From: Treponema sp.
Lineage (GTDB): Bacteria; Spirochaetota; Spirochaetia; Treponematales; Breznakiellaceae
Assembly (NCBI GenBank): GCA_031278095.1
Contig: JAITLC010000011.1
Location: 1 to 64,000 of the forward strand
Length of the DNA: 64,000 bases
Direction of reading: 5' to 3'
The notes beneath the pieces are model-generated. The model did not search any database. It had not been told where the DNA came from and saw only the letters and a list, made by a program, of their open reading frames with translations. The position numbers and the translations under genes were made by a program. Shown piece by piece: positions 785 through 19,700 of the stretch (position 1 is its first letter; the number at the start of each line of letters is the position of its first letter).

Positions 785-816
785 AATGTCAGTCAGAATA
801 GGTCAACGAGGTGTGT

Positions 817-3800
817 ATGCAGTCTTTGGGAATTAATATCGGATCCACCAGCCTGAAAATGGTTTTATTAGAAGACACGACGGTAAAGTGGAGCGCCGCA
901 GTCCCCCACGAGGGGGATTTTTATGCGGCGGTAGGCCGGCTGCTGGAAGAAGGTCATGCCGCCGAAGCTGCGCCCGCGCTGGTTACCGGAAATGAGGGGC
1001 GTTTCATGTTCAATGTGGCCGGTACCCTTGAACCTCTCTGTGTTGAGGCCGCGCTGCGGACTCTGAATCTCAAGGCCGATGCCGTGGTAAGTATGGGCGG
1101 TGAGGATCTGGTGGTCTACTCCCTGGATCAGAACGGGAAGATTATCAATAACTTCTCCGGCAACAAATGCGCCAGCGGTACCGGGGAATTCCTTAAGCAG
1201 CAGCTTGCCCGTATGGATATGACCCTGGATGACATCGATAAGGTGCCTGATACCGCCAAGGTCTATCCCCTCTCCACCCGTTGTTCGGTATTCATGAAGA
1301 GTGACTGTACCCACAGGCTCAACAAGCGGGAGGCCACAAAGGAGGATATTGTCCTTTCCCTGAGCGATGTCATGGCGGTCAAGGTTATCGACTTTTTGAA
1401 GCGGGCCAAGGTTACAAAGGGGAAGGTGATTCTCACCGGGGGCATCACCCTCAACCGGCATATCATACGGTTTATCCGGGAAAAGGCGCCGGAAATTGAA
1501 TTTATTATCCCCGATACGGCCCCGGTCTTCGAGGCGCTGGGAGCCGCGGCTCTGGCGCCCCAGTCGGGAAGTCCCCTTCCGGCCGCGGACAGTCTTCTTA
1601 AGCCCAACGAGATCCGTTTCGGTTCCCTTTCGGCCCTGAAAGACTGGACGGGCAAGGTAAAGAGTTTCGAGAAGGGGGAGGGCACGGTAAAGGCCGGGCG
1701 GCCCTACATTCTGGGGGTTGACGGCGGTTCTACCACTACCAAGGCATGTCTTGTGGATATGGAAACCGACGAGGTCGTGGCAAGCCATTACGGCCGTACC
1801 CACGGAGATCCGGTGAAGGCTCTCAAGGAATGCCTCGGGATCCTGCAGGAGAAGGTTATTGCCGACACGGGAAGCAAGGATATTGATATACGCCTTGTGT
1901 CTACCACGGGTTCCAGCCGGGAGATACTGGGAGTTTTCCTGGAAACTCCCGGTGTGTACAATGAAATTATCGCCCACTCGGTGGGGACTACCTATTTTGA
2001 CGCGGGGGTGGAAACGATCTTTGAAATCGGGGGGCAGGATGCAAAATATGTGCTCCTGAAAAACGGGGTTCCCATCGACTATGCGATGAACGAGGCGTGT
2101 TCCGCCGGAACCGGTTCCTTCCTTGAAGAATCCGCCGCGGGGGATCTCTCGATCCACAACGCCAAAGACATCGGGCCTGTCGCATTGGGAGCCGACGCTC
2201 CGCTTAAGTTTGGGGAGCACTGCAGCGCCTTTATCAACAGCGATATCCGCAAGGCGGTTCAGCAGGGGGCAACCAGGGAGAATATTACCGCGGGCATTGC
2301 CTGTTCCATCGTTTCCAATTACCTGAACCGGGTGGTGGGCAACAGAACCATTGGCGGGAAGATCTTTTTGCAGGGCGGGGTCGCCAAGAATCCTGCGGTG
2401 CCTCTGGCCTTTGCCATGCTTCTCGACAAGGAAATTCTCGTGCCCCCTGCGCCTGAGTTGATGGGCTGTTTCGGCGTCGCCCTTCTTGCCAGGCGCAAGC
2501 ATGCCGACGGCCTTCTTGAAGAACGCAGAGTCGTTATCGACGAACTTTTGAGCCGGGAAATCGGGTATGAGCGGGTCTTTACCTGCCAAAGCTGCGACAA
2601 CCGCTGTACCATTCAGGTGCTCACCGTGGCAGGCCGCAGGTACATGTTCGGCGGCCGCTGCAACAAGTACACGAATATGCGCAAGTCGGTAAAGGATGTA
2701 CCGGTTTTTGATTATGTTGAAAAGCGGCAGAGGATGCTCTTTGAAGAGTTTGCCGCACCGGCGGAGACGCGGAAAAAACGCAATTTTACTGTCGGTATTC
2801 CGCGGGCTTTCGGCGTTCATACACTCTATCCGCTCTATTCATGGTTTTTCCACGAATTGGGGATCAAGACCTTCCTCTCCACAGAGGTAGCCCATGCGGG
2901 TGTTGCCATGGCGGAATCCACCTACTGTTTCCCCGCGGAAATTGCCCATGGCGCCGTGCAGGATTGTCTGGACAAGGGGGCCGACTATGTGCTGCTTCCC
3001 CATTTCCGCGACATGCCCTCCTACGAAGAGGAGGTACACGCAAACTTTTGTCCCATAACACAAAGTCTGCCGTATTATATAGAAAAGGCTTTTCCGGACA
3101 TCGGCAAGAAACGCTGGCTGCCTTTGGTGGTGAGTTTCAAATTCGGCGAAGGTAAGGCGCTGGAGCTTTTCTGTCAGATGACGGCCCGCCTGGGTATAAG
3201 TGAAGAGGAAACGAAGGCGGCTTTTGAAAAGGCCCTGGCAAAGCAGAACGAGTACTTTGACGCGTGCAAAACCCTGGGGAAAGAGGCGCTTGAAGAATCC
3301 CGTAAGGCAGGCCGTCCTGTAATAGCCCTGCTGGGAAGGCCCTACAACGCCTTTACCGTGGAGGCCAACATGGGGATTCCCCGTAAATTTACCACCCGCG
3401 GGTACTCCATCGTACCCTTTGATATTCTTCCATTTCATGATGAAAAGATTTTCCCCAACATGTACTGGTACTACGGTCAGCAGGATGTGAAGGCGGCCGA
3501 ATTGCTCAAGAAAGAGGATAACATCTACCTTACCTATGTCACAAACTTTTCCTGCGCGCCGGATTCTTTTATCCTTCACTACATCAAGTGGGTGATGGGG
3601 CAGAAGCCTTTCCTCGTGCTGGAACTTGACAGTCATTCTGCGGATGCCGGTATCGACACACGGGTCGAGGCCTTCCTCGATATCATCGACGGTTACCGGG
3701 CCAAGAAGGTGGAAATTGAAGCGGAACGTTTCGACAACGGCTGGAAATTCGTTGCCGAAAGAATTCCGGGAAGATCATCTTCCAAGGGCGTCTTTGACCT

Positions 3801-5169
3801 GCGTATAGATAATACCAAAACCGGCGAGAAGGTTCCCATCGTGGGGAATAAACGGGTAAAGGTGCTGCTCTCCAACATGGGGGCTATCTCTACCGAGTAT
3901 ATAGGAGCCGCGGTGCGGAGCATGGGGATCAATGCGGAAGCCCTGCCGGTTGCAACGCCGAAGACCATACAGCTTGCCCGTTCTCACGCTTCCGGTAAGG
4001 AATGTGTGCCGAGCCATCTGGTGTTGGGCGGCGCATTACAGTATTTCTGGAGCGAGAAGTACCGCAAGGATGAACTCTACCTTCTCTTTGTGCCCATCAC
4101 CACAGGCCCGTGCCGCACGGGGCAGTACTATGTATACTACGAAAACCTCTTCAGGGATCTGCGACTTGAAAATGTGGTTATCTTTATTCTTTCCGCGGAT
4201 AATTCCTACGGGGAACTGGGGCCGGGCTTTGCCAAGGAAATGTGGCGGGGCTTTGTGCTTTCCGATTATCTCAAAGACATACAGACCAGCCTCAAGGCTC
4301 TTGCCGCCGACCCTGAAAAGGCGGTTGCCGATTATGAGCGCCTCTGGCGCGGCCTCATGCATACCGTGGAGGCGGAACCCGGAAAAGTCTGGAAGCGGCT
4401 TAAGGCAGTTGCCGGGGAAGTTAAAAAGATACCGCTCAAACGGAAACTCGCCGATTGTCCGCGGGTACTCATCGTGGGGGAGATCTATGTCCGCCGGGAT
4501 GACTTTGCAGTCGGCGAGTTGACGGATCTTATGAGCGAGCGGGGCATTGTAGTAAAGGTGGCGGGCATCTGCGAATGGATACACTACCTGGACTTTGTGC
4601 GGGAGTATTCCTACAAGAAACTCATGCGTCTTGAAAAACCGGGGAGACGGATCTTTTCAAAGCCCTGGAAGGATCTCAAGATGCTGGAAATTGAAGAGTG
4701 GTGGAAACATTCCATCGAAAAGAAGGTCTTGAAGATCCTGAATCCCACGGGCCTTGTTCCCGAAACTCCCCACGATATGCACGAGATCATGGAGAATACC
4801 CAGCAGAATTTTGTCAATCTGGAACTTAACAGTGAAATTGCCGTTTCCACCGGAGGCGCCGCCACCGCCATGGAGCACGGCTATTCGGGAATCGTGAATA
4901 TCAGTCCCTTTGCCTGCCTTATCGGCCGGGTAATCGAAGGCCTCTTTACCCCCTGGGCCCGGGAACGAAACTACCCGATCCTCTCCGTGGAGGTAGACGG
5001 GAATCTTCTGCCTCCGAACATCGTGAACAAGCTCAACATCTTTATGGTAAATGTGCTGCGTTTCCGGGGCGGCAGCGATCTTTCGGGCCTTGTGGACGCC
5101 GCCGGGAGCCACAACCGCAGGTTTCCCGCCGCCGGCCCAAAAAAGGAAAAAACCGCGGCCGTAACCTGA
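817..5169 (+). CDS. acyl-CoA dehydratase activase / 2-hydroxyacyl-CoA dehydratase fusion protein
   Basis: A 1450-residue cytoplasmic protein combining two BadF/BadG/HgdC-type ATPase domains with dehydratase-like regions. The first ATPase domain (about 4-255) starts GINIGSTS and has CASGTGEF near 120. The second (about 297-560) starts GVDGGSTTTK and has CSAGTGSFLEE near 427; its cysteine may help hold the [4Fe-4S] cluster bridging the activator dimer. A cysteine-rich stretch (CQSCDNRC near 590) leads into a DUF2229-type region (about 657-880) and a C-terminal region related to HgdB subunits. Activators of this family drive ATP-dependent single-electron transfer to dehydratases. Length matches the 1400-1500-residue fused forms found in anaerobes. 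The ATG at 817 is chosen over GTG 811 because GAGG at 807-810 is correctly spaced only for 817. The substrate is unknown. Confidence 0.85.
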   Translation: MQSLGINIGSTSLKMVLLEDTTVKWSAAVPHEGDFYAAVGRLLEEGHAAEAAPALVTGNEGRFMFNVAGTLEPLCVEAALRTLNLKADAVVSMGGEDLVVYSLDQNGKIINNFSGNKCASGTGEFLKQQLARMDMTLDDIDKVPDTAKVYPLSTRCSVFMKSDCTHRLNKREATKEDIVLSLSDVMAVKVIDFLKRAKVTKGKVILTGGITLNRHIIRFIREKAPEIEFIIPDTAPVFEALGAAALAPQSGSPLPAADSLLKPNEIRFGSLSALKDWTGKVKSFEKGEGTVKAGRPYILGVDGGSTTTKACLVDMETDEVVASHYGRTHGDPVKALKECLGILQEKVIADTGSKDIDIRLVSTTGSSREILGVFLETPGVYNEIIAHSVGTTYFDAGVETIFEIGGQDAKYVLLKNGVPIDYAMNEACSAGTGSFLEESAAGDLSIHNAKDIGPVALGADAPLKFGEHCSAFINSDIRKAVQQGATRENITAGIACSIVSNYLNRVVGNRTIGGKIFLQGGVAKNPAVPLAFAMLLDKEILVPPAPELMGCFGVALLARRKHADGLLEERRVVIDELLSREIGYERVFTCQSCDNRCTIQVLTVAGRRYMFGGRCNKYTNMRKSVKDVPVFDYVEKRQRMLFEEFAAPAETRKKRNFTVGIPRAFGVHTLYPLYSWFFHELGIKTFLSTEVAHAGVAMAESTYCFPAEIAHGAVQDCLDKGADYVLLPHFRDMPSYEEEVHANFCPITQSLPYYIEKAFPDIGKKRWLPLVVSFKFGEGKALELFCQMTARLGISEEETKAAFEKALAKQNEYFDACKTLGKEALEESRKAGRPVIALLGRPYNAFTVEANMGIPRKFTTRGYSIVPFDILPFHDEKIFPNMYWYYGQQDVKAAELLKKEDNIYLTYVTNFSCAPDSFILHYIKWVMGQKPFLVLELDSHSADAGIDTRVEAFLDIIDGYRAKKVEIEAERFDNGWKFVAERIPGRSSSKGVFDLRIDNTKTGEKVPIVGNKRVKVLLSNMGAISTEYIGAAVRSMGINAEALPVATPKTIQLARSHASGKECVPSHLVLGGALQYFWSEKYRKDELYLLFVPITTGPCRTGQYYVYYENLFRDLRLENVVIFILSADNSYGELGPGFAKEMWRGFVLSDYLKDIQTSLKALAADPEKAVADYERLWRGLMHTVEAEPGKVWKRLKAVAGEVKKIPLKRKLADCPRVLIVGEIYVRRDDFAVGELTDLMSERGIVVKVAGICEWIHYLDFVREYSYKKLMRLEKPGRRIFSKPWKDLKMLEIEEWWKHSIEKKVLKILNPTGLVPETPHDMHEIMENTQQNFVNLELNSEIAVSTGGAATAMEHGYSGIVNISPFACLIGRVIEGLFTPWARERNYPILSVEVDGNLLPPNIVNKLNIFMVNVLRFRGGSDLSGLVDAAGSHNRRFPAAGPKKEKTAAVT

Positions 5170-5214: not shown

Positions 5215-5976
5215 CTACAGAATTACTGCCGCCGCCATGATTCCTGCACAGATAAGCAGCATCACTGCGTCGGCAGGGTAAAAGGGGTATTTTTTACTTC
5301 CCGAAAGACGGCTGCGGAGATTGAAGCCCCGCAGCTCCGCAGAGATGGCGCCCCCTTCGATTTTCCGCACGCTGGAGATCAGCAGGGGGACGCAGAGGGG
5401 GAGGAGCAGCCGTATTTTCTTGAAGAAATTTTTTGTGTCAAATTCCACACCCCTTGAGATCTGGGCCTCCATGATCCCCGCCATCTCATTTGAAAAAATG
5501 GGGATAAAGCGCATGGCTGTGGTGAGCACAAAGGTATACTTGTAGGGGATACGGCAGCAGCGTACAAGGACATTGGAAATATCGCTTATCCTGGTAACCG
5601 ACAGCATAAGTGCAAGGGGCTGGGTGGCGGCTATGAGGCGCATGACAAAGAGAAGAGAGAAACGTAAGCCCATGTCCGTAATATAGATGTTGAGGGGGAA
5701 ACGGATGAGAACTTCACCTTCCCGTACAAAGAATATCTGCACGGCAAAAAGCACAATCGACAGTTTTATTAACGATACAAAGATCCGTACCGAACGGCGG
5801 AGTACTCCGGACAATGCGGAAAGAATCAGCGTAAAGCCGATGATCCCCAGTATCACAAGATGATTCATGCTGAGAAAACAGGATGCGCACAGGCCGAAGG
5901 CCAGCAGCAGCTTTGTGAGGGGGTTAAGCCGGTGGAGCAGGGAATTCCCGCTTACATAGTCAAGCAAGCCGCTCAT
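5215..5976 (-). CDS. ecfT: ECF transporter transmembrane coupling subunit EcfT
   Basis: A 253-residue integral membrane protein of the CbiQ/EcfT family with several hydrophobic helices (about 25-60, 75-95, 110-130, 235-253). It carries the two cytoplasmic coupling-helix signatures of the family, here SRGVEFD (near 175) and LRGFNLRSR (near 212), equivalents of the Ala-Arg-Gly motifs that dock into the ATPases. It couples ATP hydrolysis by the two EcfA subunits to rotation of the substrate-binding S subunit. It is the last gene of the four-gene operon, and its start overlaps the end of the upstream ATPase by 17 bases, indicating translational coupling. Confidence 0.88.
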   Translation of the reverse strand: MSGLLDYVSGNSLLHRLNPLTKLLLAFGLCASCFLSMNHLVILGIIGFTLILSALSGVLRRSVRIFVSLIKLSIVLFAVQIFFVREGEVLIRFPLNIYITDMGLRFSLLFVMRLIAATQPLALMLSVTRISDISNVLVRCCRIPYKYTFVLTTAMRFIPIFSNEMAGIMEAQISRGVEFDTKNFFKKIRLLLPLCVPLLISSVRKIEGGAISAELRGFNLRSRLSGSKKYPFYPADAVMLLICAGIMAAAVIL

Positions 5977-6784
5977 GTACAGCCTCTGTCATTTCATCAA
6001 CGGTATACACGTTTTCAAAGCCTTCCCCCAGGGCCATAGCCAGGGCGGGTATCTGGGCCGGCAGCAGGGATGCCGCTTCCAGAAGGGGTCTGTTCTTCAT
6101 GAGCGCCTTTACGCTCAGATCCCCGGTGAGTTTCCCGCCGCTTAGTACCAGGGCCCTCTCTGCGTAATCGGCTACCAGTTCCATGTCATGGCTGATCATG
6201 AGAACGGTTGTACCTTCCCCGTGCAGCCGTGAAATGATACCCATGATGTTGACGCATTCCCGGTAATCAAGACCCGTGGTTGGCTCGTCAAGGATCAGGA
6301 GTTCGGGTTTTATCGCCAGCACCGAGGCGAGGGCTATCTGCTGCCGTTCACCGCGGCTCATGCTGAAAGGATCGCCGCCGCCTTCAAGCTCAAAGAGTTC
6401 CAGCATTTCATTGAGCCGTTCTTCCCTGATTTTTGCGGCCCCTTCTTTATCGCCGCTCATGATCGCATTAAGGCCGAACAGAATCTCCTCCCGGACGGTG
6501 TTGCAGCAGATCTGCCGGTCAGGATTCTGGAAGAGGAACCCCAGCTTCCGTGCAATAAGGCTGGTTTTGACATGCCGGGTATCCATGCCTGCGACAGTAA
6601 CCCTGCCGCTGTCCGGTTTTAAAAGACCGTTGCACAGCCGCGCCAGGGTAGATTTTCCCGCGCCGTTTTCCCCGACAAGCGCGGCAAATTCCCCCTTCTC
6701 AAGACGGAAGCTTATCCCGCAAACGGCACTGGTTCTGCCGTCTCCCGTGCCGTAGGAGAAGGTGACGTTATCAAAATGCAGCAT
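5960..6784 (-). CDS. ecfA: ECF transporter ATP-binding subunit (second EcfA)
   Basis: A 274-residue ABC ATPase. Walker A GENGAGKST lies near residue 38, the Q-loop in FLFQNPDRQI near 85, a variant signature MSRGERQQ near 142 (Ser-Arg-Gly instead of Ser-Gly-Gly), and Walker B LLILDEPTTGLD near 162, followed by the switch His in MISHD. The Q-loop FQNPD is typical of ECF/cobalt-type ATPases. It pairs with the other EcfA encoded immediately upstream (2-base gap). The C-terminal tail overlaps the ecfT start. Confidence 0.88.
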   Translation of the reverse strand: MLHFDNVTFSYGTGDGRTSAVCGISFRLEKGEFAALVGENGAGKSTLARLCNGLLKPDSGRVTVAGMDTRHVKTSLIARKLGFLFQNPDRQICCNTVREEILFGLNAIMSGDKEGAAKIREERLNEMLELFELEGGGDPFSMSRGERQQIALASVLAIKPELLILDEPTTGLDYRECVNIMGIISRLHGEGTTVLMISHDMELVADYAERALVLSGGKLTGDLSVKALMKNRPLLEAASLLPAQIPALAMALGEGFENVYTVDEMTEAVHERLA

Positions 6785-6786
6785 GT

Positions 6787-7638
6787 TTAGCGCCTCCTTA
6801 AGCCGGGGATACCGCGTATCATCTTTTCCCCTTCGCTTAGATTTGAAACCACAGGCCCCGAATAGATGCCTCCGGCCCTGAGCCGCCGGGCCAGTGTGCT
6901 TACACGGGGGATGTTGACCCCCGCTTCCTCAAGCCGTTCCCCTTCCTGCAGAACTTCCGCCACGCTGCCTTCCAGAACGAGTTTTCCCCCGTCCATGACG
7001 GCAAGACGCTTTGCAAATTCACAGAGGAGCATGATCTTCTGTTCGACAATGACAATGGTAATCCCCTGTTCCCTGTTGAGCTTCCGCAGGAATTCAAAAA
7101 CACGCCGGGAAGAGACCGGGTCAAGTTCCCCCGTGGGCTCGTCCAGCACGATTATTGAGGGCTGCAGGGCGGTAATTGCCGCTATCGCCACCTTCTGTTT
7201 CTGCCCGCCCGAAAGGGAACTTAGGGAACGGTCACGGAGATTTTCAATTCCCGCGGCGGAGAGGGCTTCCTCAAGACGGCCCGGAATATCCTTATGGAGA
7301 ACGCCGAAATTTTCAAGACCGAAGAGAATTTCATCTTCCGTCACGGAGGCCGCCATCTGAGCGTCGATGTCCTGGAAAACGCTCCCTACATGCCGGGCCA
7401 GTTCCTCGCTTCCCGCATCAATACTGTCAAGGCCGTTGATCTTCACTTCGCCGTAGAAGTCGCCGGGAAAGTGGTGGGGAACAACACCGTTAATGGCATA
7501 GGTGAGCGTAGTCTTCCCGGCCCCTGAAGGCCCGATGATCCCGATAAAATCCCCGCCGGGCACTTCCAGGTTCACGGAGGAGAGGGCCTCCCTGCCGCCT
7601 CCCCTGTAACGAAAACTAAGATTGCGGATAGCTATCAT
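6787..7638 (-). CDS. ecfA: ECF transporter ATP-binding subunit (first EcfA)
   Basis: A 283-residue ABC ATPase: Walker A GPSGAGKTT near residue 36, Q-loop VFQDIDAQ, signature LSGGQKQK near 143 and Walker B IIVLDEPTGELD near 163. The usual switch histidine is replaced: the motif reads IVIVEQK, with Glu-Gln where many ABC ATPases have His. This is common in one of the two EcfA-like subunits, so the pair probably has one consensus and one degenerate site. The start at 7638 overlaps the S-subunit stop in a TAATG arrangement. An upstream open extension to 7890 is only the S-gene read in another frame. Confidence 0.88.
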   Translation of the reverse strand: MIAIRNLSFRYRGGGREALSSVNLEVPGGDFIGIIGPSGAGKTTLTYAINGVVPHHFPGDFYGEVKINGLDSIDAGSEELARHVGSVFQDIDAQMAASVTEDEILFGLENFGVLHKDIPGRLEEALSAAGIENLRDRSLSSLSGGQKQKVAIAAITALQPSIIVLDEPTGELDPVSSRRVFEFLRKLNREQGITIVIVEQKIMLLCEFAKRLAVMDGGKLVLEGSVAEVLQEGERLEEAGVNIPRVSTLARRLRAGGIYSGPVVSNLSEGEKMIRGIPGLRRR

Positions 7639-8228
7639 TACTGCTTTTTCAACGCAATCTTTAAGGGTATGTACAGTACCTGTACGATAACTGCATTGAT
7701 CGCCGCAGTCCCGAATATGATCGCCATAAAGATTGCAAGAGGCGTCGGCGTGATGTCGAAACCCGTGTAGTACATGAGGTACATGACACCGATAAAACTG
7801 AAGCCCGACACCAGGGTACTGAAGAAAGTGCAGAACATGGTTTTGACAGGAACCCTGCCGGTATTGACGGGGATCCTTATGAGGAGGCACATTGCGGCGG
7901 CCCCCAAAAATTCGCTGACAAAGTTGATGTAGGGCTGCCCCGGAAAGAACTGGCAGATGGCCCCGGAGAGCAGGCCGATTATCGCCGCTTCAACAATCCC
8001 CGGCTTGATGAGCAGGATCGTGAGGCAGTACATGGCGATGATGAAGTTGGGCTTCATCCCGAAGTTGATCACGGATCCCACAAAGAATTTGAGAACCGCG
8101 CCGGCGGCCAGAAGAATGCCGATCAGGAGCACATCGGCAATACCGAGCCCCTTCTTCTCTTTTTCCGCCACCATGCGTCTCCGGCCGTTTTCCGCCGCGA
8201 GCGCTTCCGCAGCTTTTTTCTGTTCCAT
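7638..8228 (-). CDS. ECF transporter S component, substrate unknown
   Basis: A 196-residue membrane protein with a charged N-terminal tail (1-30, rich in Lys/Glu/Ala) and about five to six hydrophobic helices between residues 32 and 190, typical of ECF substrate-binding (S) subunits. A conserved stretch MKPNFIIAMYCLTILLIKPG leads into a Gly/Ser-rich segment (GLLSGAICQFFPGQP) that probably lines the substrate pocket. It is first in the operon, followed by two ATPases and EcfT, so this is a dedicated transporter rather than one using a shared module. Start: ATG 8228 with AGGAGG upstream. I cannot name the vitamin or amino acid. The operator pair upstream shows it is repressor-controlled; I see no riboswitch. 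Confidence 0.8.
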   Translation of the reverse strand: MEQKKAAEALAAENGRRRMVAEKEKKGLGIADVLLIGILLAAGAVLKFFVGSVINFGMKPNFIIAMYCLTILLIKPGIVEAAIIGLLSGAICQFFPGQPYINFVSEFLGAAAMCLLIRIPVNTGRVPVKTMFCTFFSTLVSGFSFIGVMYLMYYTGFDITPTPLAIFMAIIFGTAAINAVIVQVLYIPLKIALKKQ

Positions 8229-8238
8229 ATTTCCTCCT

Positions 8239-8297
8239 TGTTACTATGTATAGTAACAGTTTCTATATATAGAAACACACCGGAAAAATCTTGTCAA
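8239..8297 (-). promoter_or_regulatory. ECF operon promoter with two abutting palindromic operators
   Basis: -35 TTGACA lies at 8292-8297 on the minus strand. A -10 falls 18-20 bp downstream, inside a perfect 18-bp palindrome at 8259-8276 (GTTTCTATATATAGAAAC). A second near-perfect 20-bp palindrome at 8239-8258 (TGTTACTATG/TATAGTAACA) abuts it and ends just before the AGGAGG ribosome site. The shared half-site is roughly GTTWCTATR. Centres are 19 bp apart, fitting two repressor dimers on one helix face. The regulator is unidentified. Confidence 0.8.
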
Positions 8298-8346: not shown

Positions 8347-8456
8347 TTACATAAATTTAAGAATTTAACCGCTGACCTCACGGACAAAAACGGACTTTTT
8401 GATCCGAATTCGCAGGTTTTGTCCGTGTCGGTCCGCATCCGTCCGTGGTAAAATTA
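8347..8456. repeat. dispersed 'accacggac' element, copy 1
   Basis: About 110 bp that reappears inverted at 49641-49768. Internal arms CACGGACAAAA and TTTTGTCCGTG make it a hairpin. The stretch AAGAATTTAA and an ACATAAATTT end are also shared. No reading frame is conserved, so it is non-coding. It fills most of the gap between the ECF operon and the serine acetyltransferase. Confidence 0.8.
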
Positions 8457-8616: not shown

Positions 8617-9501
8617 ATGAACCGTCTGGATCGCAGTATTGACGCCCTCATGGAATCCTATGGCGCCTATGGCATCGTAAACCATACGGGAGGAGCCAAC
8701 CTTCCCAACAGCGAGGCCATTGAGCAGATACTCAAGGGTCTCGAAAGCCTCATTTTTCCCGGATTCCGGGAAAATATCCGTCTGGATCACAACGATCTCC
8801 GCCTTATAACCGCAGAGAAGATCAACCGTCTGGCCCGCGATCTTATCCGCGAGGTGGAAAAGAGCCTTTCCTTCTATGCCCGGACACATAACTACTCAAG
8901 CGGCCTTGAAGGCTGCCATGCCGGGGCGGAACTGGTAGTCGAAGCCTTCTTTGAGGAACTCCCCCGCATCCGCAGGGCACTCGCCCTGGATATGCAGGCC
9001 GCTTTTGACGGAGACCCGGCAGCCAAAAGCGCCGAGGAGGTGATCCTCTCCTATCCCGGCTTCGCGGCTATCACGATTCACCGTGTGGCCCACTTTTTCT
9101 GGGAAAACAGCGTCCCCCTGATCCCCAGGATGATGAGTGAATACGTCCATTCCCGGACAGGCATCGACATACACCCCGGCGCGGATATCGGCTCCTCATT
9201 CTTTATCGATCACGGCACCGGAGCGGTAATCGGTGAAACTACAGTCATCGGGAAGAACGTCAAACTCTACCAGGGCGTTACCCTGGGAGCCCTTTCGGTC
9301 AAAAAGGAAGAAGCAGATACCAAACGCCACCCAACCATCGAAGATGATGTTACCATTTATTCCCACGCCACGATCCTCGGCGGAGAGACCCGCATCGGCC
9401 GGGGCAGCATCATCGGCGGTAACGTGTGGATTACCAGATCCGTCCCCCCCGGCTCAACCGTCTACATCCACGCCGGAGAACAGATTGAAAAAAATATGTG
9501 A
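8617..9501 (+). CDS. epsC: serine O-acetyltransferase (EpsC type)
   Basis: A 294-residue enzyme that acetylates L-serine with acetyl-CoA to O-acetylserine, the first step of cysteine synthesis. The N-terminal helical domain begins with the EpsC-like pattern [17 protein letters not shown]. The left-handed beta-helix of hexapeptide repeats occupies about residues 190-285 (for example [18 protein letters not shown], with the catalytic Asp/His pair in FIDHGTG). The tail lacks the long CysK-binding C-terminus of enteric CysE. It is monocistronic, with a leaderless promoter in front and a hairpin element after the stop. Its partner O-acetylserine sulfhydrylase is not in this window. Confidence 0.88.
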
Positions 9502-9602: not shown

Positions 9603-10646
9603 ATGGAAAAACATGATACCCACAATGTATTCGACAAGGTGTTCAAACGCCTCATCCTCTCCTCCAAAGGGGCTGTAATCCATCTTATTAACGGGCTTTT
9701 TGGAACCGATTACCCCTTGGACAGCAGTGTCGAGTATCCAAACACGGAATTCATCACCGGACAGATGAAACATCTCTACCCGGATATCCTCATTGTTATC
9801 GGCGGTATCCACCAGTACCATCTGGAGGCCCAGATTCAGAATGACACGAACATGACCCTGCGGATATTTGAGTACGGATTTCAGTATGCCCTCCGAAACA
9901 AGACCAGTTATAAGGGCCTTCTTACCATTTCCATGCCGCGGGCCTGCGTTATTTACCTGGGATCGGGTACAAAGAAGGCAAAACAGCCGGCATTCAGGCT
10001 TCTCTTTCCCGACGGCGGCGCCCACATATACAGAGTAAAAGCCTTTTATCTTTTGAACCATGACATACGGGAACTTGAGGAACGGAACATGGTGATACTG
10101 CTTCCGTTTTATATTCTGAAACTGAGGAAAGCCGCTGAAAAAGCGGGGAACCACAAAAGGCTGGAGGAACTGTCACGGGAGGCGGCCGGTATGGTGAATG
10201 AAATTCTAAAAACGGCGGAGAGAAGCGGAAGAAGGGGTATTTTGAATACCGAAGAACAGCGCGTATTGATAGAATTACTGGATCGCTTATATACTGAAGT
10301 ATACAGGAACTATATTGAATTCAAGGAGGCCGGTATGAGACTGCAGGACATCATAATGACCAGGGTTGAAGAGGCCGAGGCCGAGATGGAAGCCAGAATG
10401 GAAGCCAGAATGGAAGCGAGAATGGAAGCGAGAATGAAAGCCGAAGTGGAAGCCAGAGAAGCCGAAGTGGAAGCCAGAATGAAAGCCAGAGAAGCCGAAG
10501 TGGAAGCCAGAATGGAAGAACTCGCCCGGGCCCATTCGGAAGAGCGTGTACGCGAGGTTGCCCGCAACATGAAGAAAATAGGGCTCTCTACTGAGCAGAT
10601 TGCCCGGGTGAGCGGTTTTTCCGTCAAAGAGATTGAAGAACTGTAA
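9603..10646 (+). CDS. Rpn/PD-(D/E)XK nuclease family transposase-like protein
   Basis: A 347-residue protein of the Rpn/'PD-(D/E)XK nuclease family transposase' group, abundant in spirochaete and gut anaerobe genomes. The N-terminal 250 residues carry the nuclease-like core: Asp61 in YPDILIV and Glu75-x-Gln77 in HLEAQIQ, the D...ExQ form typical of this family. Residues about 255-305 are a highly charged coiled coil of EARM/EAEV repeats, and the C-terminus (about 315-347) looks like a small helix-turn-helix (STEQIARVSGFSVKEIEEL). No Shine-Dalgarno site; a TATTAA box lies four bases before the start. Known relatives (RpnA) are DNA endonucleases promoting RecA-independent recombination; whether this one is active is unknown. 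It has no terminal inverted repeats, so it is not an insertion sequence itself. Confidence 0.78.
   Translation: MEKHDTHNVFDKVFKRLILSSKGAVIHLINGLFGTDYPLDSSVEYPNTEFITGQMKHLYPDILIVIGGIHQYHLEAQIQNDTNMTLRIFEYGFQYALRNKTSYKGLLTISMPRACVIYLGSGTKKAKQPAFRLLFPDGGAHIYRVKAFYLLNHDIRELEERNMVILLPFYILKLRKAAEKAGNHKRLEELSREAAGMVNEILKTAERSGRRGILNTEEQRVLIELLDRLYTEVYRNYIEFKEAGMRLQDIIMTRVEEAEAEMEARMEARMEARMEARMKAEVEAREAEVEARMKAREAEVEARMEELARAHSEERVREVARNMKKIGLSTEQIARVSGFSVKEIEEL
10385..10520 (+). repeat. in-frame tandem repeat array in the nuclease-like gene
   Basis: Repeats of 12-15 bp (GAAGCCAGAATG, GAAGCCGAAGTG and variants) encode Glu-Ala-Arg-Met / Glu-Ala-Glu-Val heptad-like units. All units are multiples of three, so copy-number change would alter coiled-coil length without a frameshift. 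Confidence 0.8.
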
Positions 10647-10794: not shown

Positions 10795-13700
10795 ATGAAG
10801 AAATTTTGTACCGTATTGACGTTCCTCGTGTTTTGCGCCGCCGCCGGGTGGGGCGTGAATTATACATGGACAGGAGGAGGGTCTACGGGTGCATGGAATG
10901 AGACAACCAACTGGGATGCTGCCGGAGTTCCTGATTTTTCAACGACCGGTACAGGCGATACCTTGACGATTAATAGAACAGGCAGTCGGGACTTTACAGC
11001 TCCCGGCAGCTTTACCATTGGTTCCATAACCGTTACCGCCGGAACATTTACCACAGGCGCCAATACCATAACGGTCGGTTCCGGTTTTTCCGTAGACGTT
11101 ACCGGCTCTGTTACAGCAACCGGTTCTACTGTTATTTTGAATGGTGGAGGAACCATAGACTTGGGCGGTTCCAGCCTTAATGCTGTGGAAGTTGCAGGCG
11201 GTACGTGGACTGTTAGCAGCGGAACCGGAACACTGAATGCAACAAGTACGGTGTTGGCAGGGGGAAGCCTGGATACCTCCGGCACCACAGGGACAGTAGC
11301 CCTGGGAAATTTATCCATAACAGCCGCCGCCAGCACGCTGACTCTTGCAGGAACAGAAACCCTGACGCCCCTCAGCGTAGGCGGAACCGTAGTTTTTACC
11401 GGAGGCACGGATCTTGGGGGTATAACTGGATTCAATAACCTCACCATAAGCGGGGGGGGTCATACGGTACCCGGCGCTTTAACTGTCACCGGTGATCTGA
11501 CCGTAGACACTACGCTCACCCTTGGAGATGACAGCACGGTCGGGGGTAATTTAACTGTAAGCGGAACACTTACTAACGGCAGCTATACTCTTGGCGTTAC
11601 CGGGGACGTCGGCGGCGCCGGGCTTATAGAGGGAACAGGTCAAGTCACGGTCGGGGGAAACTGGACAGATACACGGGTAAACGGAACGGATAAACCCCCG
11701 GTAGAACTGACGGGTGCAACCGGTAATATCACTCAGGGGACCGGTGGTTTTGATGTATTAACCGTGAGCGGCAGCTATACGGCAATAAATTCCCTTACCG
11801 TAGAGACTTTGGACATAACAGGTTTGCTGGACTCGAATGGGAACAATTTGACCATAAGCGCCTCGCCGGGTACCTTGAGTTTTTCAGGAACCTTGCGGCT
11901 TAGAGGTAGCGAAACAATAAGCGGAGCGGCTAATTTTAACGGTACGGTGGAATACTACAATACAACCGCTTCGACGGTGCCAACCGGATACACTTATAAA
12001 GACCTTACCTTTACCGGCGGCAATATCTGGACGGTCGCTGCGCCTTTGGCGCCAACCGGAACCCTGACCATAGCAGCCGGTACTACCTTGAATATGAGCA
12101 ATTATTCCCTGAGCTACGCAACTCTGGCCGGCGGCGGAACCCTGGCAGGGCTTCCCGCAGCTTCGTTGCCAAATCCTATACCCACTAACGTAATCTACGG
12201 GGCTCTGGTTTTGGATGGAGGTACTGCTTATACAACTACCGGGTCTGACGACCTGAGATTTGACACTATTGACGTTCCATCCGGTTCAACTTTGAGTACT
12301 AACGGTGTAGCGATGACGCAGAGCGGTACGGTCGGGACCAACGACATCAAAGGAAACGTTACCGCTGCTAGCGGGATTTCTCTTACCGGGAATACAGGTC
12401 TGGTAGCTAATCTTACCGCCGCAACCGGAGATATTACCCTTGCCGGAACTACAACACTGACAGGCGGTGTTACCCTCACTGCTTCAGGCGGAAGTATCAG
12501 CCTTGCCGCGGTAACGGGGGGAAGCAATGATCTGACCTTAAGCTCCGGCGGCGCTGTGAGCAGTTCAGGAACTATCTCTACCAGCGGTACTGTTAGTGTT
12601 ACGGTGACCGGAACCGGGGCTCCCGGCATAACGCTGAATAACACATCCAATGCCATCGGAACTTTTACTGCCGATACCAGCGCCGGAGGTGGAACTATAG
12701 CGCTTGTCAACTCCACCGCCCTGATCCTGGGAAATGTAAACGCCGGAACCGGGAATGTATCTTTGACCAGCGGCGGCGCTGTAACCCAAACCGGATCTAC
12801 AGCCGTCACTGCCGGGGCGCTCACTTTAGGCGGCTCTTCCGCAACTTTTACCCTGAACCAAAGTAACAACGATGTAGATACCCTCCAGACCGATACGGCT
12901 TACCCTGTAGATATTACTTTTGTTGATACCGATGGCTTTTCTCTGGCGGCGGGTTTCCAGGCGAGTACAAGTCTAAGTTTTACCGCCAACGGCTCAATAA
13001 CCATGAACGGTACAATTGCTACACCCAGCCTGACTCTGGGCAGCGGGACTACTAATTTGGAACTGAACGGGAACAATATCACCGGGCCCGACGCCGATGC
13101 CGATATAGCCAACGGCGGCATTATCACCTTTACAAACGGAACGGAGAGTCTGGGGACTACCGGTACGGCGTTGGATACTCTGGGCGGGACGGTGATATTT
13201 GGAGGGGGTACAGGCTTTGCGGGCTACACAACATTCACCAATCTAACCCTGAACGGCGGGACGCATGTTGTGAATGCCGGTACGGGAGATATAACGGTAA
13301 ACGGAACTTTGACCATCGGCTCTTCGGGCGCCTTAACGCTGGACGGTGCGAATATGACCGGGCCCGACGCCGATGCCGATATAGCCAACGGCGGCATTAT
13401 CACCTTTACAAACGGAACGGAGAGTCTGGGGAGTACCGGGCCTGGACAGCTGGATACTCTGGGCGGGACGGTGATATTTTTGGACGGGGTGGATCTGCGG
13501 GGCATTACAGGTTTTAATATCCTTGAATTACGTAACGGCATTCATACTCCTTCTGCGGCAATAGTTGTCAGCGGTACCCTCTCCATAGGAGACGGGATCG
13601 GCCTTGCAGGAAGCGCCGGTCTGACTCTTGCTGCGAACAGCAGCGCACTCAATTTGGAGTTATATAGTCCTGACGGCATTTTGGATTTTGCCGGTTTTGA

Positions 13701-16700
13701 CTTTAACGTAACCGGTACTGTCGTCAATAACGGTACCATCCGTCTCCTGGGCCGTGAAACTTTGACATGGCTGCCGGGCAATATGTCCGGCAGTGGAACC
13801 ACGATATTTTACGGCACTGCTAACTCCGACAACAGGCTTGCCGGTTTGACTAAATTTTACCATCTTACCATAGAGGTGGGAGCTCATACCAACACTACCG
13901 CCGGTGCCGCACTCACCATCGGCGGCAATTTGCTTGTTAGTTCGGGAAGCCTTACCCTTGGTACAAATACCGGCAATGTTACCAGTAGGGTTACGGGGAA
14001 TGTAACAGTCGAGGATGCGACGCTGACAATCCCTGCCAATAATACCCTTGAAGTTAGCGGTTCTGCCACCAATGGCGCCGCCGGTACGGGAGCCAGAAAA
14101 ATCGAACTTTCCGCCGGTACCAGCGTCATGACCGTTGGCGGCGACTGGAATATTGCGGATCTCGATGCCAATTCGGGCTCCACCGTCACCTTTAACTCCG
14201 CCGTATCCGCTGCCATTACCACCAATGATCAGAATTTTGGTAACATTGTAGTGTATGCGGGGGGAGTAACAAAGACCGTAACCGGGGAAATAAATACCCA
14301 GTCGGATCTCACCGTTACCGCCGGAGCCCTGGTGTCCGATGCGGGAATTTCGGGGAGTAAAACGGAAAATTCCATAGGCGGAAATCTTTTGATAGACGGC
14401 GGAACCTTTACCGTATCGTCGTATAGTGAAAATACAATCGGCGGAAATCTTACGGTCAGCAGCGGGACATTGACTTTCTCCGCCGATAACGATACCGGCA
14501 TTACAGGAAATCTTACGGTCAGCGGCGGGACATTGACCTTCTCCGCCGATAACGATACCGATATTACAGGTTATGCCGTGGTTTCAGACGGGTCTCTAAT
14601 CCTCAACGGAACTACAGACATAACAGGTTCAAGCGGCGGAATCAGTATGGCTCTTTCCGGCGGAACTGTAACAATTCCGGACAATTCAGCGGTAACGGTA
14701 AGCGGTGCGGTTACCATGAGCGGCAGTACCGCCACGCTTGCAGGGCCTACCGTTTCGTCGCAATTCGGAGCCCTCAGCGCCCGGTCGATTAGTCAGGCAG
14801 TTACAGCAGGAAACAAGATAACAGGAAAGCTCCACATAACAACAGTTGAAGGTATTGACCTTCGCGGAAGTAATACGGCAACTGAGTTAAGTCTTGATAA
14901 CGATCCCGGAACCGGCGGCATACAATTGACCAATACAGCCGCATTAATCCTCGTAACAGCCGCAGCCACGGGTGCGGGAATAATAGATATTGACAATACC
15001 GGAACAATGAGCGTGACGGGAAATGTTACTACCGGTACCGGTAATATCACCCTGGCATCCAGCGGCAGTCTTACTATGGGAAGCAGTGTTACCGTAGAGA
15101 CTACCGGTACTATAACTCTTGAATCAGATGGTGCAATGGCTGTTGTTTCAGGGACCGCAATTAATTCAGGAACTATCTATATTCAGCCCAAAACCGCTTC
15201 CACTAATATCTATATAAATAATAACGGTACAGGTCTCTATGTACCTTCTGCGCTTTTGGAGGCCCTGAGTACCAGTGAAGTATATATAGGCCATCCTTCC
15301 GGTACCGGATCTTTTGGCATAGGCGGGCAGGGTGCAATAGGTGCAGGCTCAGGGCTTGACTATCATCTCACCCTGAGGAGCCCGGATGCAACAAACGCCG
15401 GTTCCATGTCTTTCAATTTTATCAATTCTAGCGATACATTCAGTTTGGCAAATGGCCGGAACTTTACCATTAATACCAATGACATGCCGGTAGCTCATAG
15501 CGGTTCCTCCACCTCCGATATTGCCCTTTCCGGTTCGGGGACGCTTGTCATTACCTCAGGCAGCGTAGGTGCTTCGGTTTCCCGTTTAACCGGATCTGTT
15601 CCAAATCTGGGGCCGGTAACTTTGACCATGGGAGCAGGCTTCTATTTTGGCAATACTACAGCCCTGGCTATCGTTGGGGATATTGAAGGAAGCTCCAATG
15701 CAAACGCCGGGGACATAGATATTACGTGTTCGTCTTCCATCACCCTGAATAATGGAAGCGCTGCCGCAGACGGAAGCCGTACTGATATTCTGGCAAGTAA
15801 CATAACGCTTACCGGAACCGGAACGGGAACCGCCGGAACAATCACACTCGGCAGTTATGCCAATCTTGTCGGTGTCGCCGTTACAATACAACTGACAGAC
15901 ACGGGCGCAATGGGCGGTATTACACAAAACGCCAATGGGATAATTAATGCGAGCAATACTGTCTCCATAAGCGCTTCCGGCGGTAATGTTATTCAAAATA
16001 ACAGCGCTTCGATCGGCGGAGGCAATACCGTCAGCTTAACCGCGAATACCGGCAATATCACCCAAAACGGCAGCGCTTCGATCGGCGGAGGCAATACCGT
16101 CAGCTTAACCGCTGCCGCCGGTAATGTCACACAGACGGTAAACACCACTGCAATCAGCGGAGATACAGTGACTGTTAGTGCCGGTGGCGGCATCAGTCTC
16201 ATTGGTCACGATGGCTCTGGTTCCGACAACACGGTAAATATCCTCCATCTATCCAATAGTACAAACGGAAATATTACCTACATAGGGGAAGCAGGTTCCG
16301 GAGGAACCATCACCCTGGATGCCCGCAATACCGCCGCCGGTGGAACGGTGAGCGTTACCGCGGTAACAGGAAACATTGCTGTGGCACACGACATTACGTA
16401 TGGCGCAGGGCCTGTTATAAGCAGCAGTAGCGGCGCTATAAGTATTACCGCCGGCACGGGAAACATTGGTACAGATTCGTATTCAGGTTCCTCTATCGGA
16501 AGCGGCGGCGGTGATATTACACTCCTTGCATCCGAAGGAACCGTAACGGTCGATTCTGCGGAAAGCGACGCGATAGTATCCGGCGGAGGGAATATAAGCC
16601 TGAATAACGGGATTGATGCGGATTCAATTACGCTCCATAGAAATGTGGTAAGCGGCACGGCGGCGGGCGGAAACATTGATTTTTATAAACCGGTCATTAT

Positions 16701-19700
16701 CGGCAATACGGTATCTGTTACTACCGGAACCGGCGCGGGGAATATAAGCTTCCATGATACCGTTGAGCAAATTTCCTCCGCGTTAAGTACAGGAGAGTAT
16801 AGCCTCACTCTTACAGCCGGGACGGGGAACATTGTTCTCAACGGCATCAAAGAAGAAAACAGCAAGCGTATCGGTGACTTTGAGGTAACAAGCGCCGTAG
16901 ATGTAACGTTGACTGCAAATAAACCGGTCTTTACCAACAGTACAATCGAGATTGAGCATACGGGTCTCTTTACTCAGAATGACGGCGCTAATATTGACGT
17001 ATCAAACGGAGGCTTCCATCAGACGAGCAATACGGGAACAAGCCGTATTGGCGCCAATATTGCTGTCTCGGGGTTAATCGGAGATATTATAAACAGCGAA
17101 ACAAGCTGGGGCATTGGCTTCAACAACAGCATAGAACTCCATGTCGATGATGCTGTAGTTGTCATGACTTCCAGGGGCGGAGATATTGTTTTGGGTGGAG
17201 CGCATAAACTAAGCCCGGTAGCTTCAAGCGCTATTACCGGAACCGCATTAAGGCATATCACCCTTGAAGCGGATGATGGAACTTATACCAACGGCAATTC
17301 CCATGACATCACCATCAATAGTAATATGGGATTCGGCGGAACAATTGGTAATGTAGTAGTAGTAAATGTCAATCGGCTCGAAGTAGAAGGAACGGTGAAC
17401 GCGGTGAGTTTTACCCAGCAAAGCGCAGACGGTGATGGTACAAATTCGGCGCTCAGTTGGTTTAAAGAAGTCCAAAATTATTCGGGTAATTTCTCCTTCA
17501 ACGGTAATGCCTTGAACATAGAAAACGCTATGTCGGTAACCGGAACCACAACGATAGTAAATACCGGCATTTTTGCGGTGCTGGATACTTCAGGTTCTTA
17601 TGCCGCGGATAGCGCAGCAACTGCCGGAACCGTAACTCTCGGCGATAAATTGACGGTTTCCGGCGTTACCATCAATAATGGTATTATCACTGCGGGTCCG
17701 ATAACAGGCGGAGCGGCCGCAGAGTTTCAAGATAACTATTACGGCAGCGGAACCCTGGTCGGGAATACGTCTCAAAATCCCAGTCTTGTCTTTAAGGGTG
17801 TTGTAACAGTCTTTGAGCATTTTATCCATAATGGTGATAAACTGGTTTTTAGCCGGGAAGGCGATCAGTCTTTCAAGGTATTAGACCCTATTGCGGATTT
17901 TACTCTTGACAGTCCCGGGGGAATTTTGCAGCTTGTAAATGATGCGGGAGTTTTATGTACCGATACTACGTCTCCTTCCCATATCATTCAAAACACTTCC
18001 GATCCGGTTCTTGAAATCGCCGCCGGCGTCCTCGATCCAAACAAACTCTGGCCTACGGAACCAAAAAAACTCTGGACTATGGGAAGCCGGACAACGGAAA
18101 CCGAAGTCTTTTTCGGCCAGGCAGGAACCCTGCGTTTCAGCGGGGTTCCTCCCAACCAGGGCGGAGACGCCAAGGAACTCATCGTCAGGGGGGATATGCT
18201 TCTGCGGGGAGGAAGCAGTCCCGCAGCGGCGTTTAAGGTGGAATCGGTCATGAATACACCGGCATCGCCTTCCGGGGGTCTTCCCGATTATACACAGACC
18301 GCCTGGATTAGTCTTATTGACGGAAACACACGTATTGGCCCCGATTCCACCCTTATCAACTCCAGTACCCATTCGGTTCTCTTCAATGCCAAGCCCTGGG
18401 ACATTACGCTTAATTTCCGGGCTGATAATTTGGGAGCGGTATATCTGGAAGCCCCGGTTCCCGTCGGCGGTCTTGCCTTTACAGGCTCTCTGGCCGAATC
18501 GGTACTGAGTTTTCGCTCGGATGTACACTTCCAGGGAAGCGTTGCCTTCGGCGAAGGCAGGACTATTGATCCCGTTCCGTCCGGCTATGGCTATTCTACT
18601 GAAGGATATCTAACGATAGGCGGAACACAGTATTTTTATAACCGCACGGTAATAGTAAACGGAAGCTGGATTAACAGGCGCACCGACGCAAAGCCGGGCT
18701 TCCGCAGCATGAGCCAGAACGCGGATTACGACGGAGACGAGGCTGAAAGGGAGGGAAGGCGTTCACGGGTAATTTTCAGGGGAAGGGAAACCTATATTGT
18801 AGGGAATTCGGACTGGTGGATCTTTGAGGCCGTTGCGGATGAAAATCCTCTCTTTTCATCAAATGGCGGTATGATGATCTTCTTCTCGCCCTTCCGGAAT
18901 AACATGATCGGGCCTTTCCATAAAGTAGAATATCTGTTCCGGGTTTTAGGACCGAGCGGCGTTCCTGCTGTTATCCCTGTTAATCCCGATCCGTCGGACA
19001 CCAGCGGACAGTCGCTTGATTCGGCGTCGAACAGACATGAGTGGATCACCATTTCGAAAATTTGGAACTGGAATTCGACCAAGCCGGAGCCCTGGGATTA
19101 TCCTCCGGACAATCTCCACCAGGATCCCGATCCTCCGGACATGACCAAGTGGAATCTCTGGCCCAGCCGGGAAAAATTCTGGGACTTCGATCTGCGGAAC
19201 AGCGCTAGGCTGGATATTAACCGGGTGCGTATTTTCTACAGTCATTCTATCCGTCGTATTCCTGTGCCGGGCCCCAACGATCCGGACGGCAGGATAGTAC
19301 AGGCGGATTCGAGTCAGGGGCTTTATTATGAATCTAAAGGGTATTGGGAAGGTTACTTCGATGTAAACTGGATACGCATGGACAGTTTCTACTACAGTTT
19401 CACCGAAGATTCAAACCGTAACGGCAGAATTGACCGCATTCGTATTCAGGCCGCCTATGAGCTGATGGGAAAAGCCGATGCGTTCAGCGAATTTGATATT
19501 GAAGTTGAAGACTACGAGGTTGACGCATCGCGTGGCTTCCGCGGTTATGAGCGGGTAGAGACAATGCCTAACCGTGACGGTATCTATATGTACCTCAAGG
19601 AAAAAGATTACAACGATACGGGCGCCATTCTCAAATGGAAGGTCGTAAAGAATGACAGCCTCTTTGAGACAATCACCGGTTCTACCAGGATAGGACGGGT

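Follow-up and report, generated by a model that had tools for sequence, protein, structure and literature searches.

What governs the ECF transporter operon at this locus, and what does the transporter carry? The window (the whole stretch of DNA analysed, 64,000 nucleotides of the contig JAITLC010000011.1 of Treponema sp., a gut spirochaete) holds an operon in the order S-A-A'-T, that is, an S gene, two ECF ATPases and EcfT, with two palindromes in front of it. A preliminary description of the DNA had read the palindromes as a tandem operator controlling an ECF transporter of unknown substrate, without a recognisable vitamin signature, and had proposed that the operator could reveal the regulator and, through its regulon, the substrate. 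From the comparisons set out below, we consider it highly likely that the palindromes are the tandem operator of a spirochaete TrpR-family repressor that senses tryptophan and acts on the operon of a tryptophan ECF importer. This reading names a substrate for an ECF transporter that had none and defines a tryptophan regulon for a phylum from which our literature searches turned up none.

Table 1. Features of the ECF operon and of its putative control region in the window.
Feature	Position	Strand	Basis or remark
ECF transmembrane subunit EcfT	5215–5976	-	Pfam PF02361, 99 bits, over cut-off 25
ECF ATPase EcfA'	5960–6784	-	NCBIfam TIGR04521, 206 bits, below cut-off 330
ECF ATPase EcfA	6787–7638	-	NCBIfam TIGR04520, 216 bits, below cut-off 315
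S component of the ECF transporter (196 aa; TrpP family), predicted to bind tryptophan	7638–8228	-	Pfam PF17099, 33.5 bits, cut-off 27.2
Ribosome binding site AGGAGG	8233–8238	-	Read from sequence
Proximal operator palindrome GTTACTATGTATAGTAAC	8240–8257	.	Between transcription start region and ribosome site
Distal operator palindrome GTTTCTATATATAGAAAC	8259–8276	.	Halves 8259–8267/8268–8276, 9 + 9 nt, 100% complementary; overlaps inferred -10
Inferred -10 TTCTAT	8269–8274	-	Read from sequence; weak match, 17-bp spacing
-35 box TTGACA	8292–8297	-	Read from sequence; TTGAC near site cluster in spirochaete loci

The two palindromes abut each other with their centres 19 bp apart and are built from half-sites, GTTACTATG and GTTTCTATA, that match GTTWCTATR, just as had been described. 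Together with its flanking T and A, the proximal palindrome extends to 20 bp (8239–8258; halves 8239–8247 and 8250–8258, 9 + 9 nt, 100% complementary, around a 2-nt centre). For all searches we used the pattern GTTWCTATNNATAGWAAC, counting mismatches, and took the reversed pattern as control. With up to three mismatches allowed, the window contains two matches, both free of mismatches, against a mean of 0.44 in the dinucleotide-shuffled window. The genome search that had been suggested proved informative: over the 3.05 Mb of the genome, the tandem pair provides the sole exact matches, one mismatch is found at only one other place, which leads to a paaK gene (see below), and no place fits the reversed pattern with zero or one mismatch. 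Further upstream in the intergenic region (8379–8455) lie several inverted repeats of another kind, built on CACGGACAAAA / TTTTGTCCGTG.

The position of the palindromes relative to the promoter follows from the TTGACA box on the minus strand: at a 17-bp spacing from it, the -10 falls within the distal palindrome. This palindrome thus covers the inferred -10, and the proximal one occupies the start region as far as AGGAGG. The operator had been placed between the -10 and the ribosome site, which holds for the proximal palindrome and has to be corrected for the distal one. A consensus promoter scan reported no sigma-70 site by its own rule and did not find the -10 TTCTAT. Among the orthologues, 44 of the 45 spirochaete S loci have TTGAC close to the site cluster, compared with 3 of 45 in a control stretch, and we therefore regard the tie between operator and promoter as conserved. 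In most loci, the distance from the start of TTGAC to the first site is 21 to 27 nt; some orthologues have a first (distal) site that overlaps or contains the -35 itself (GTTTCTATTGACAGAAAC).

A scan of contigs gave 80 orthologous S loci, 77 of which had at least 50 nt of upstream DNA (three were too short and were dropped); by record title, 45 of these are spirochaetes and 32 are non-spirochaetes. The site occurs upstream of S with three or fewer mismatches in all 45 spirochaete loci, with two or fewer in 40, with one or none in 26 and exactly in 13, the reversed control giving 3, 1, 0 and 0, respectively. At up to three mismatches, it is found in none of the 32 non-spirochaete S orthologues. 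The spacing between neighbouring sites is most commonly 18 bp (16 cases) and in five cases the 19 bp of the window; other spacings include 28 and 47–52 bp. Lack of conservation upstream of orthologues had been named beforehand as the observation that would refute the operator; the palindromes are kept throughout the spirochaete loci, which supports a tandem operator controlling the ECF transporter.

The same site leads to the other genes under its putative control. In the 58 nearest genomes, 98 sites are found at zero or one mismatch, against 10 for the reversed pattern. We tested 58 site regions, asking for the start of a suspected regulon gene -40 to 330 nt from the site, and found one just downstream in 51: TrpB-like (15), trpE (10), TrpX (8), S (7), paaK (6), trpB (3), trpD (1) and a sodium symporter (1), with none in seven regions. 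This count is partly circular, the reference genes having been drawn from the same loci; NCBIfam identified the references for trpE, trpB, trpD, TrpB-like and TrpX independently, and PaaK and the symporter at family level, with the TrpX and PaaK scores below their equivalog cut-offs. In one of the seven regions (L139), a tryptophanase gene lies 138 nt from the site, while no regulon gene was found in the other six (L128, L152, L153, L166, L176, L177). On these comparisons, the palindrome marks a tryptophan regulon in spirochaetes, and, as had been expected, the regulon pointed to both substrate and regulator: to tryptophan and, very probably, to a TrpR-family protein. In a literature search of open-licence papers, we found no description of a spirochaete TrpR regulon. 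Separately, a small spirochaete genome without TrpR (G163) carries one and the same one-mismatch palindrome, TTTACTATTAATAGTAAC, at four places (C2:18637, C3:19336, C4:19973 and C4:49723), with similar copies in two further genomes (G070 and G141); these are perhaps another protein's site or a repeat.

As to the transporter itself, the S protein passes the gathering score of the Pfam TrpP family and has an S-component fold next to genes for A, A' and T. Its AlphaFold2 model, built from an alignment of 46 sequences, has a pLDDT of 82.5, and its ten best PDB matches are all either S components, such as RibU and ThiT, or chains of ECF transporters; the E-values are modest, 0.005 for the best. The structural comparison that had been proposed for the S subunit therefore yields the fold, as the matches to RibU and ThiT show, and does not on its own name the substrate; vitamin substrates were considered, and a fold search cannot tell substrates apart. 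The substrate is instead indicated by the TrpP family score and by the regulation of the S orthologues, because of which we conclude that the S subunit very probably binds and imports tryptophan. The description of the substrate as unknown accordingly does not hold, given the Pfam TrpP assignment and three tryptophan-sensing devices before the orthologues. Tryptophan is counted among the ECF substrates in one paper (PMC11487621), and the TrpP of B. subtilis is an accepted tryptophan importer, under TRAP, according to another (PMC13170310).

The non-spirochaete S loci carry devices of a different nature. A pattern search found a T-box antiterminator motif in 14 of the 32 and a UGG specifier in 12 of the 32; none of the 45 spirochaete S loci showed the T-box motifs. 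Rfam at its gathering threshold reported no T-box in 17 loci, and a permissive Rfam search of 11 loci gave a full-length T-box in seven (L044, L064, L068, L069, L070, L072 and L085), all below the gathering cut-off of 93 bits. In all seven alignments, the tryptophan codon UGG stands, by reading, at the specifier place; L085 was recognised by Rfam and not by the pattern. Nine Synergistaceae loci lack a T-box, and in eight of them (L034, L035, L039, L040, L042, L049, L050 and L055) there is a short frame in which WW or WWW occurs close to the end; L047 has no such frame. The stretch of L049 that holds the leader frame folds strongly (z = -4.1), as expected of an attenuator. These eight gut Synergistaceae loci likely have trp leader-peptide attenuators before the tryptophan importer gene. 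The leader frames are found ≈ 190–260 nt upstream of the S orthologue, and a hairpin with a T run follows in those that were read. No sensor was assigned at nine of the non-spirochaete S loci (L047, L056, L057, L062, L076, L077, L079, L080 and L081).

These three devices, the repressor operator, the T-box and the leader peptide, are unrelated and all point to tryptophan. One importer family is under three unrelated tryptophan sensors according to phylum, the regulation having been swapped around a conserved gene. Across phyla (gut Treponema, Synergistaceae, Christensenellaceae and others), the S proteins (L016–L095) are 70–77% identical and the regulation in front of their genes differs, which suggests transfer of the S gene followed by a change of regulator.

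Which protein reads the operator in spirochaetes? The genome encodes one protein of the TrpR family (PF01371; C25:22483–22728), at 67.1 bits against a cut-off of 27. It scores 54.9 bits with the TrpR model and 22.8 with that of YerC/HisR, the latter under the YerC cut-off; it also stays below the 67.25 bits of the TrpR equivalog TIGR01321, and is best described as a TrpR relative and not as a certified equivalent. In E. coli TrpR, Ile79, Ala80 and Thr81 contact DNA, and Arg54 and Arg84 contact tryptophan. All 39 aligned spirochaete proteins have the recognition helix SLC(K/N)ITRG (N in one row), against GIATITRG in E. coli, with the residues at the places of Ile79, Ala80 and Thr81 replaced; the arginines aligned to Arg54 and Arg84 are kept in 39/39 rows.

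The distribution of the protein follows that of the sites across the class and not among the nearest relatives. In 197 genomes of the class, sites with zero or one mismatch occur in 105 of the 140 genomes that have a TrpR-family protein over the cut-off and in 12 of the 57 that do not (Fisher test, which ignores relatedness), leaving 35 of the 140 without such a site; the reversed control shows no difference (39/140 and 16/57). No co-variation of TrpR with the sites is seen in the 58 nearest relatives (34 with both, 10 with sites only, 11 with TrpR only, 3 with neither; p = 1), in part because many of these genomes are incomplete drafts. The 10 genomes in which sites are present and TrpR was not found include one of the same genus (G004) that is 92% complete.

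Sites also lie before the regulator gene itself. Among TrpR loci that were not picked for sites, 9 of 66 have one with two or fewer mismatches within 350 nt upstream of trpR, and one locus (L265) repeats the design of the window, with two sites 18 bp apart that end just before the trpR start codon. Sites are further found between trpR and a TrpB-like gene (L187, L199) and between trpR and TrpX (L217, L219). Upstream of the window genome's own trpR, there is no site at two or fewer mismatches, and autoregulation is not supported in this genome. Taken with the regulon, the data indicate that the regulator is very probably the TrpR-family protein; we infer that it binds the sites and that tryptophan is its co-repressor. 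One spirochaete has a second PF01371 protein (L257, G215:C70:41680–41913) with a differing recognition helix, ISSATLSRVSR, which by eye is nearer to HisR than to TrpR.

The arrangement resembles that of E. coli TrpR in several respects: a TrpR-family protein, a 20-bp palindrome with TGT…ACA ends, operators at genes for trp biosynthesis and for uptake and, in some spirochaete lineages, ahead of the regulator gene, and a repressor logic that we infer for the spirochaetes. As expected of a TrpR-type operator, a palindrome of ≈ 20 bp lies on trp promoters, and class-wide, though not among the 58 nearest relatives, the operator is associated with a TrpR-family gene. The motif itself differs, the published TrpR consensus being TGTAcTnGTnnACnAgTACA (PMC9413887) and that of the spirochaetes TGTTtCTATnnATAGaAACA: the outer TGT/ACA agree and the inner half-site does not. 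The spirochaete proteins also have the helix SLCKITRG instead of GIATITRG, and their tandem sites are 18–19 bp apart. Another TrpR-family member with lineage-specific 20-bp palindromes is HisR (YerC), from Firmicutes and others; unlike the present case, it has a histidine regulon and the motif cacTTTAnnnnnnTAAAgtg, which like the TrpR motif is given as a 20-bp palindrome (PMC9413887), and our protein falls under the YerC cut-off. TrpP (YhaG) of B. subtilis shares with the S subunit the Pfam family PF17099, by name, and is a tryptophan-regulated tryptophan importer, but its control is translational, by TRAP (PMC13170310), rather than at the DNA level. The tryptophan T-box and leader-peptide attenuation likewise respond to how much tryptophan is available, and precede the S orthologues of other phyla, but are RNA devices, whose place the operator takes in the 45 spirochaete loci. 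The operator thus seems to work like a TrpR operator without having the known motif, and represents TrpR control in a form new to this lineage. A third operator type in the TrpR family, together with the matching change in the recognition helix, offers a clean case for studying shifts in DNA specificity.

In the proposed mechanism, a tryptophan-bound repressor dimer would sit on each palindrome, the distal dimer covering the -10 and the proximal one the start region, and RNA polymerase would thereby be kept from the S-A-A'-T promoter; once tryptophan is scarce, the repressor would leave and the tryptophan-specific ECF importer would be made. It is conceivable, and in our judgement improbable, that the tryptophan-regulon operator is read by an unrelated DNA-binding protein and that the TrpR-family protein is a bystander. 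The nearest relatives do include genomes with sites in which TrpR was not found, and the half-site presumably recalls operators of the YodB/HxlR type. A regulator of the latter type had been considered on account of the half-site and was dropped once the regulon turned out to consist of trp genes. Against an unrelated reader stand the class-wide co-occurrence of TrpR and sites, which is missing in the reversed control, the sites found immediately upstream of trpR in several lineages, or in the stretch that separates it from a TrpB-like or TrpX gene, and the palindrome size of 20 bp, which fits the TrpR family (PMC9413887).

Even less probable is a HisR-like (YerC) regulator that senses another amino acid. 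Our protein scores far higher to TrpR than to YerC, the regulon is made up of trp genes, and the two arginines aligned to the tryptophan contacts of E. coli TrpR are kept in all 39 rows. HisR does belong to the TrpR family and has 20-bp palindromes, but its published consensus, cacTTTAnnnnnnTAAAgtg, is a different one (PMC9413887). We give next to no weight to the palindromes being RNA hairpins in the leader, for attenuation or translational control, in place of a DNA operator: the proximal palindrome is indeed close to the ribosome site, but the distal one, which overlaps the -10 (the -35 in some orthologues, GTTTCTATTGACAGAAAC), would lie outside the transcript. Orthologues also differ in the spacing of the sites and in how far these are from the start codon, and the stems are AT-rich. 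A tandem operator of a TrpR-family repressor accommodates these observations best.

The single one-mismatch site elsewhere in the genome (C133:15395–15412) lies 30 nt before a gene for a PaaK-type CoA ligase, with iorA and iorB (indolepyruvate ferredoxin oxidoreductase) just upstream of paaK in the same direction. In G001–G004, which belong to the same genus, paaK is likewise preceded by this site, and seven genomes have iorA, iorB and paaK side by side. Of 15 paaK orthologues (at least 60% identity) with upstream sequence, eight have the site at three or fewer mismatches (six of them at one or none) and seven have none, so that control of paaK in all relatives is not supported; two further orthologues came without upstream sequence and stand outside the 15. 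In 13 paaK paralogue loci, there is no site with two or fewer mismatches and three with 3. No trpA, trpE or full TrpB-like gene was found in the five genomes of the genus, all of which are less than 93% complete and three less than 85%; TrpB-like fragments were seen in G003 only.

If a repressor turns paaK off when tryptophan is plentiful, salvage of indoleacetate gives the simplest sense: PaaK would make indoleacetyl-CoA from indoleacetate, and IorAB would carboxylate it to indolepyruvate, a tryptophan precursor. The aryl-acid route of Methanococcus maripaludis, as outlined in two papers (PMC4162585, PMC3462420), serves as the model. These arrangements hint that indoleacetate salvage belongs to the regulon; the role of paaK and ior may also be aromatic amino acid breakdown by the same enzymes. 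The wider proposal, in which spirochaetes have a separate TrpR branch with its own operator that in this genus controls both ECF import and PaaK/IorAB indoleacetate salvage, is a tentative one, to which we give somewhat less than an even chance. Were it true, a tryptophan repressor would govern the recycling of auxin-like indoleacetate in the insect gut.

Several neighbours of the operon in the window deserve mention. Converging with it is a gene for a 1452-aa protein (811–5169, plus strand) that by eye has the look of a fused CoA-dehydratase activase. On the other side, a serine O-acetyltransferase-like gene (8617–9501, plus strand; EpsC model, 160.8 bits, above the cut-off of 150) is divergent from the operon and shares its intergenic region, starting ≈ 340 nt from the operator. 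It is followed on the plus strand by a frame of 347 aa (9603–10646) with an internal repeat of MEAR-type units, by eye resembling a transposase/nuclease-type element protein, and by one of 3456 aa (10795–21165) that starts in a signal-like manner and has long repetitive stretches rich in Thr, Gly and Ser; its product is, judged by eye, probably a giant surface protein.
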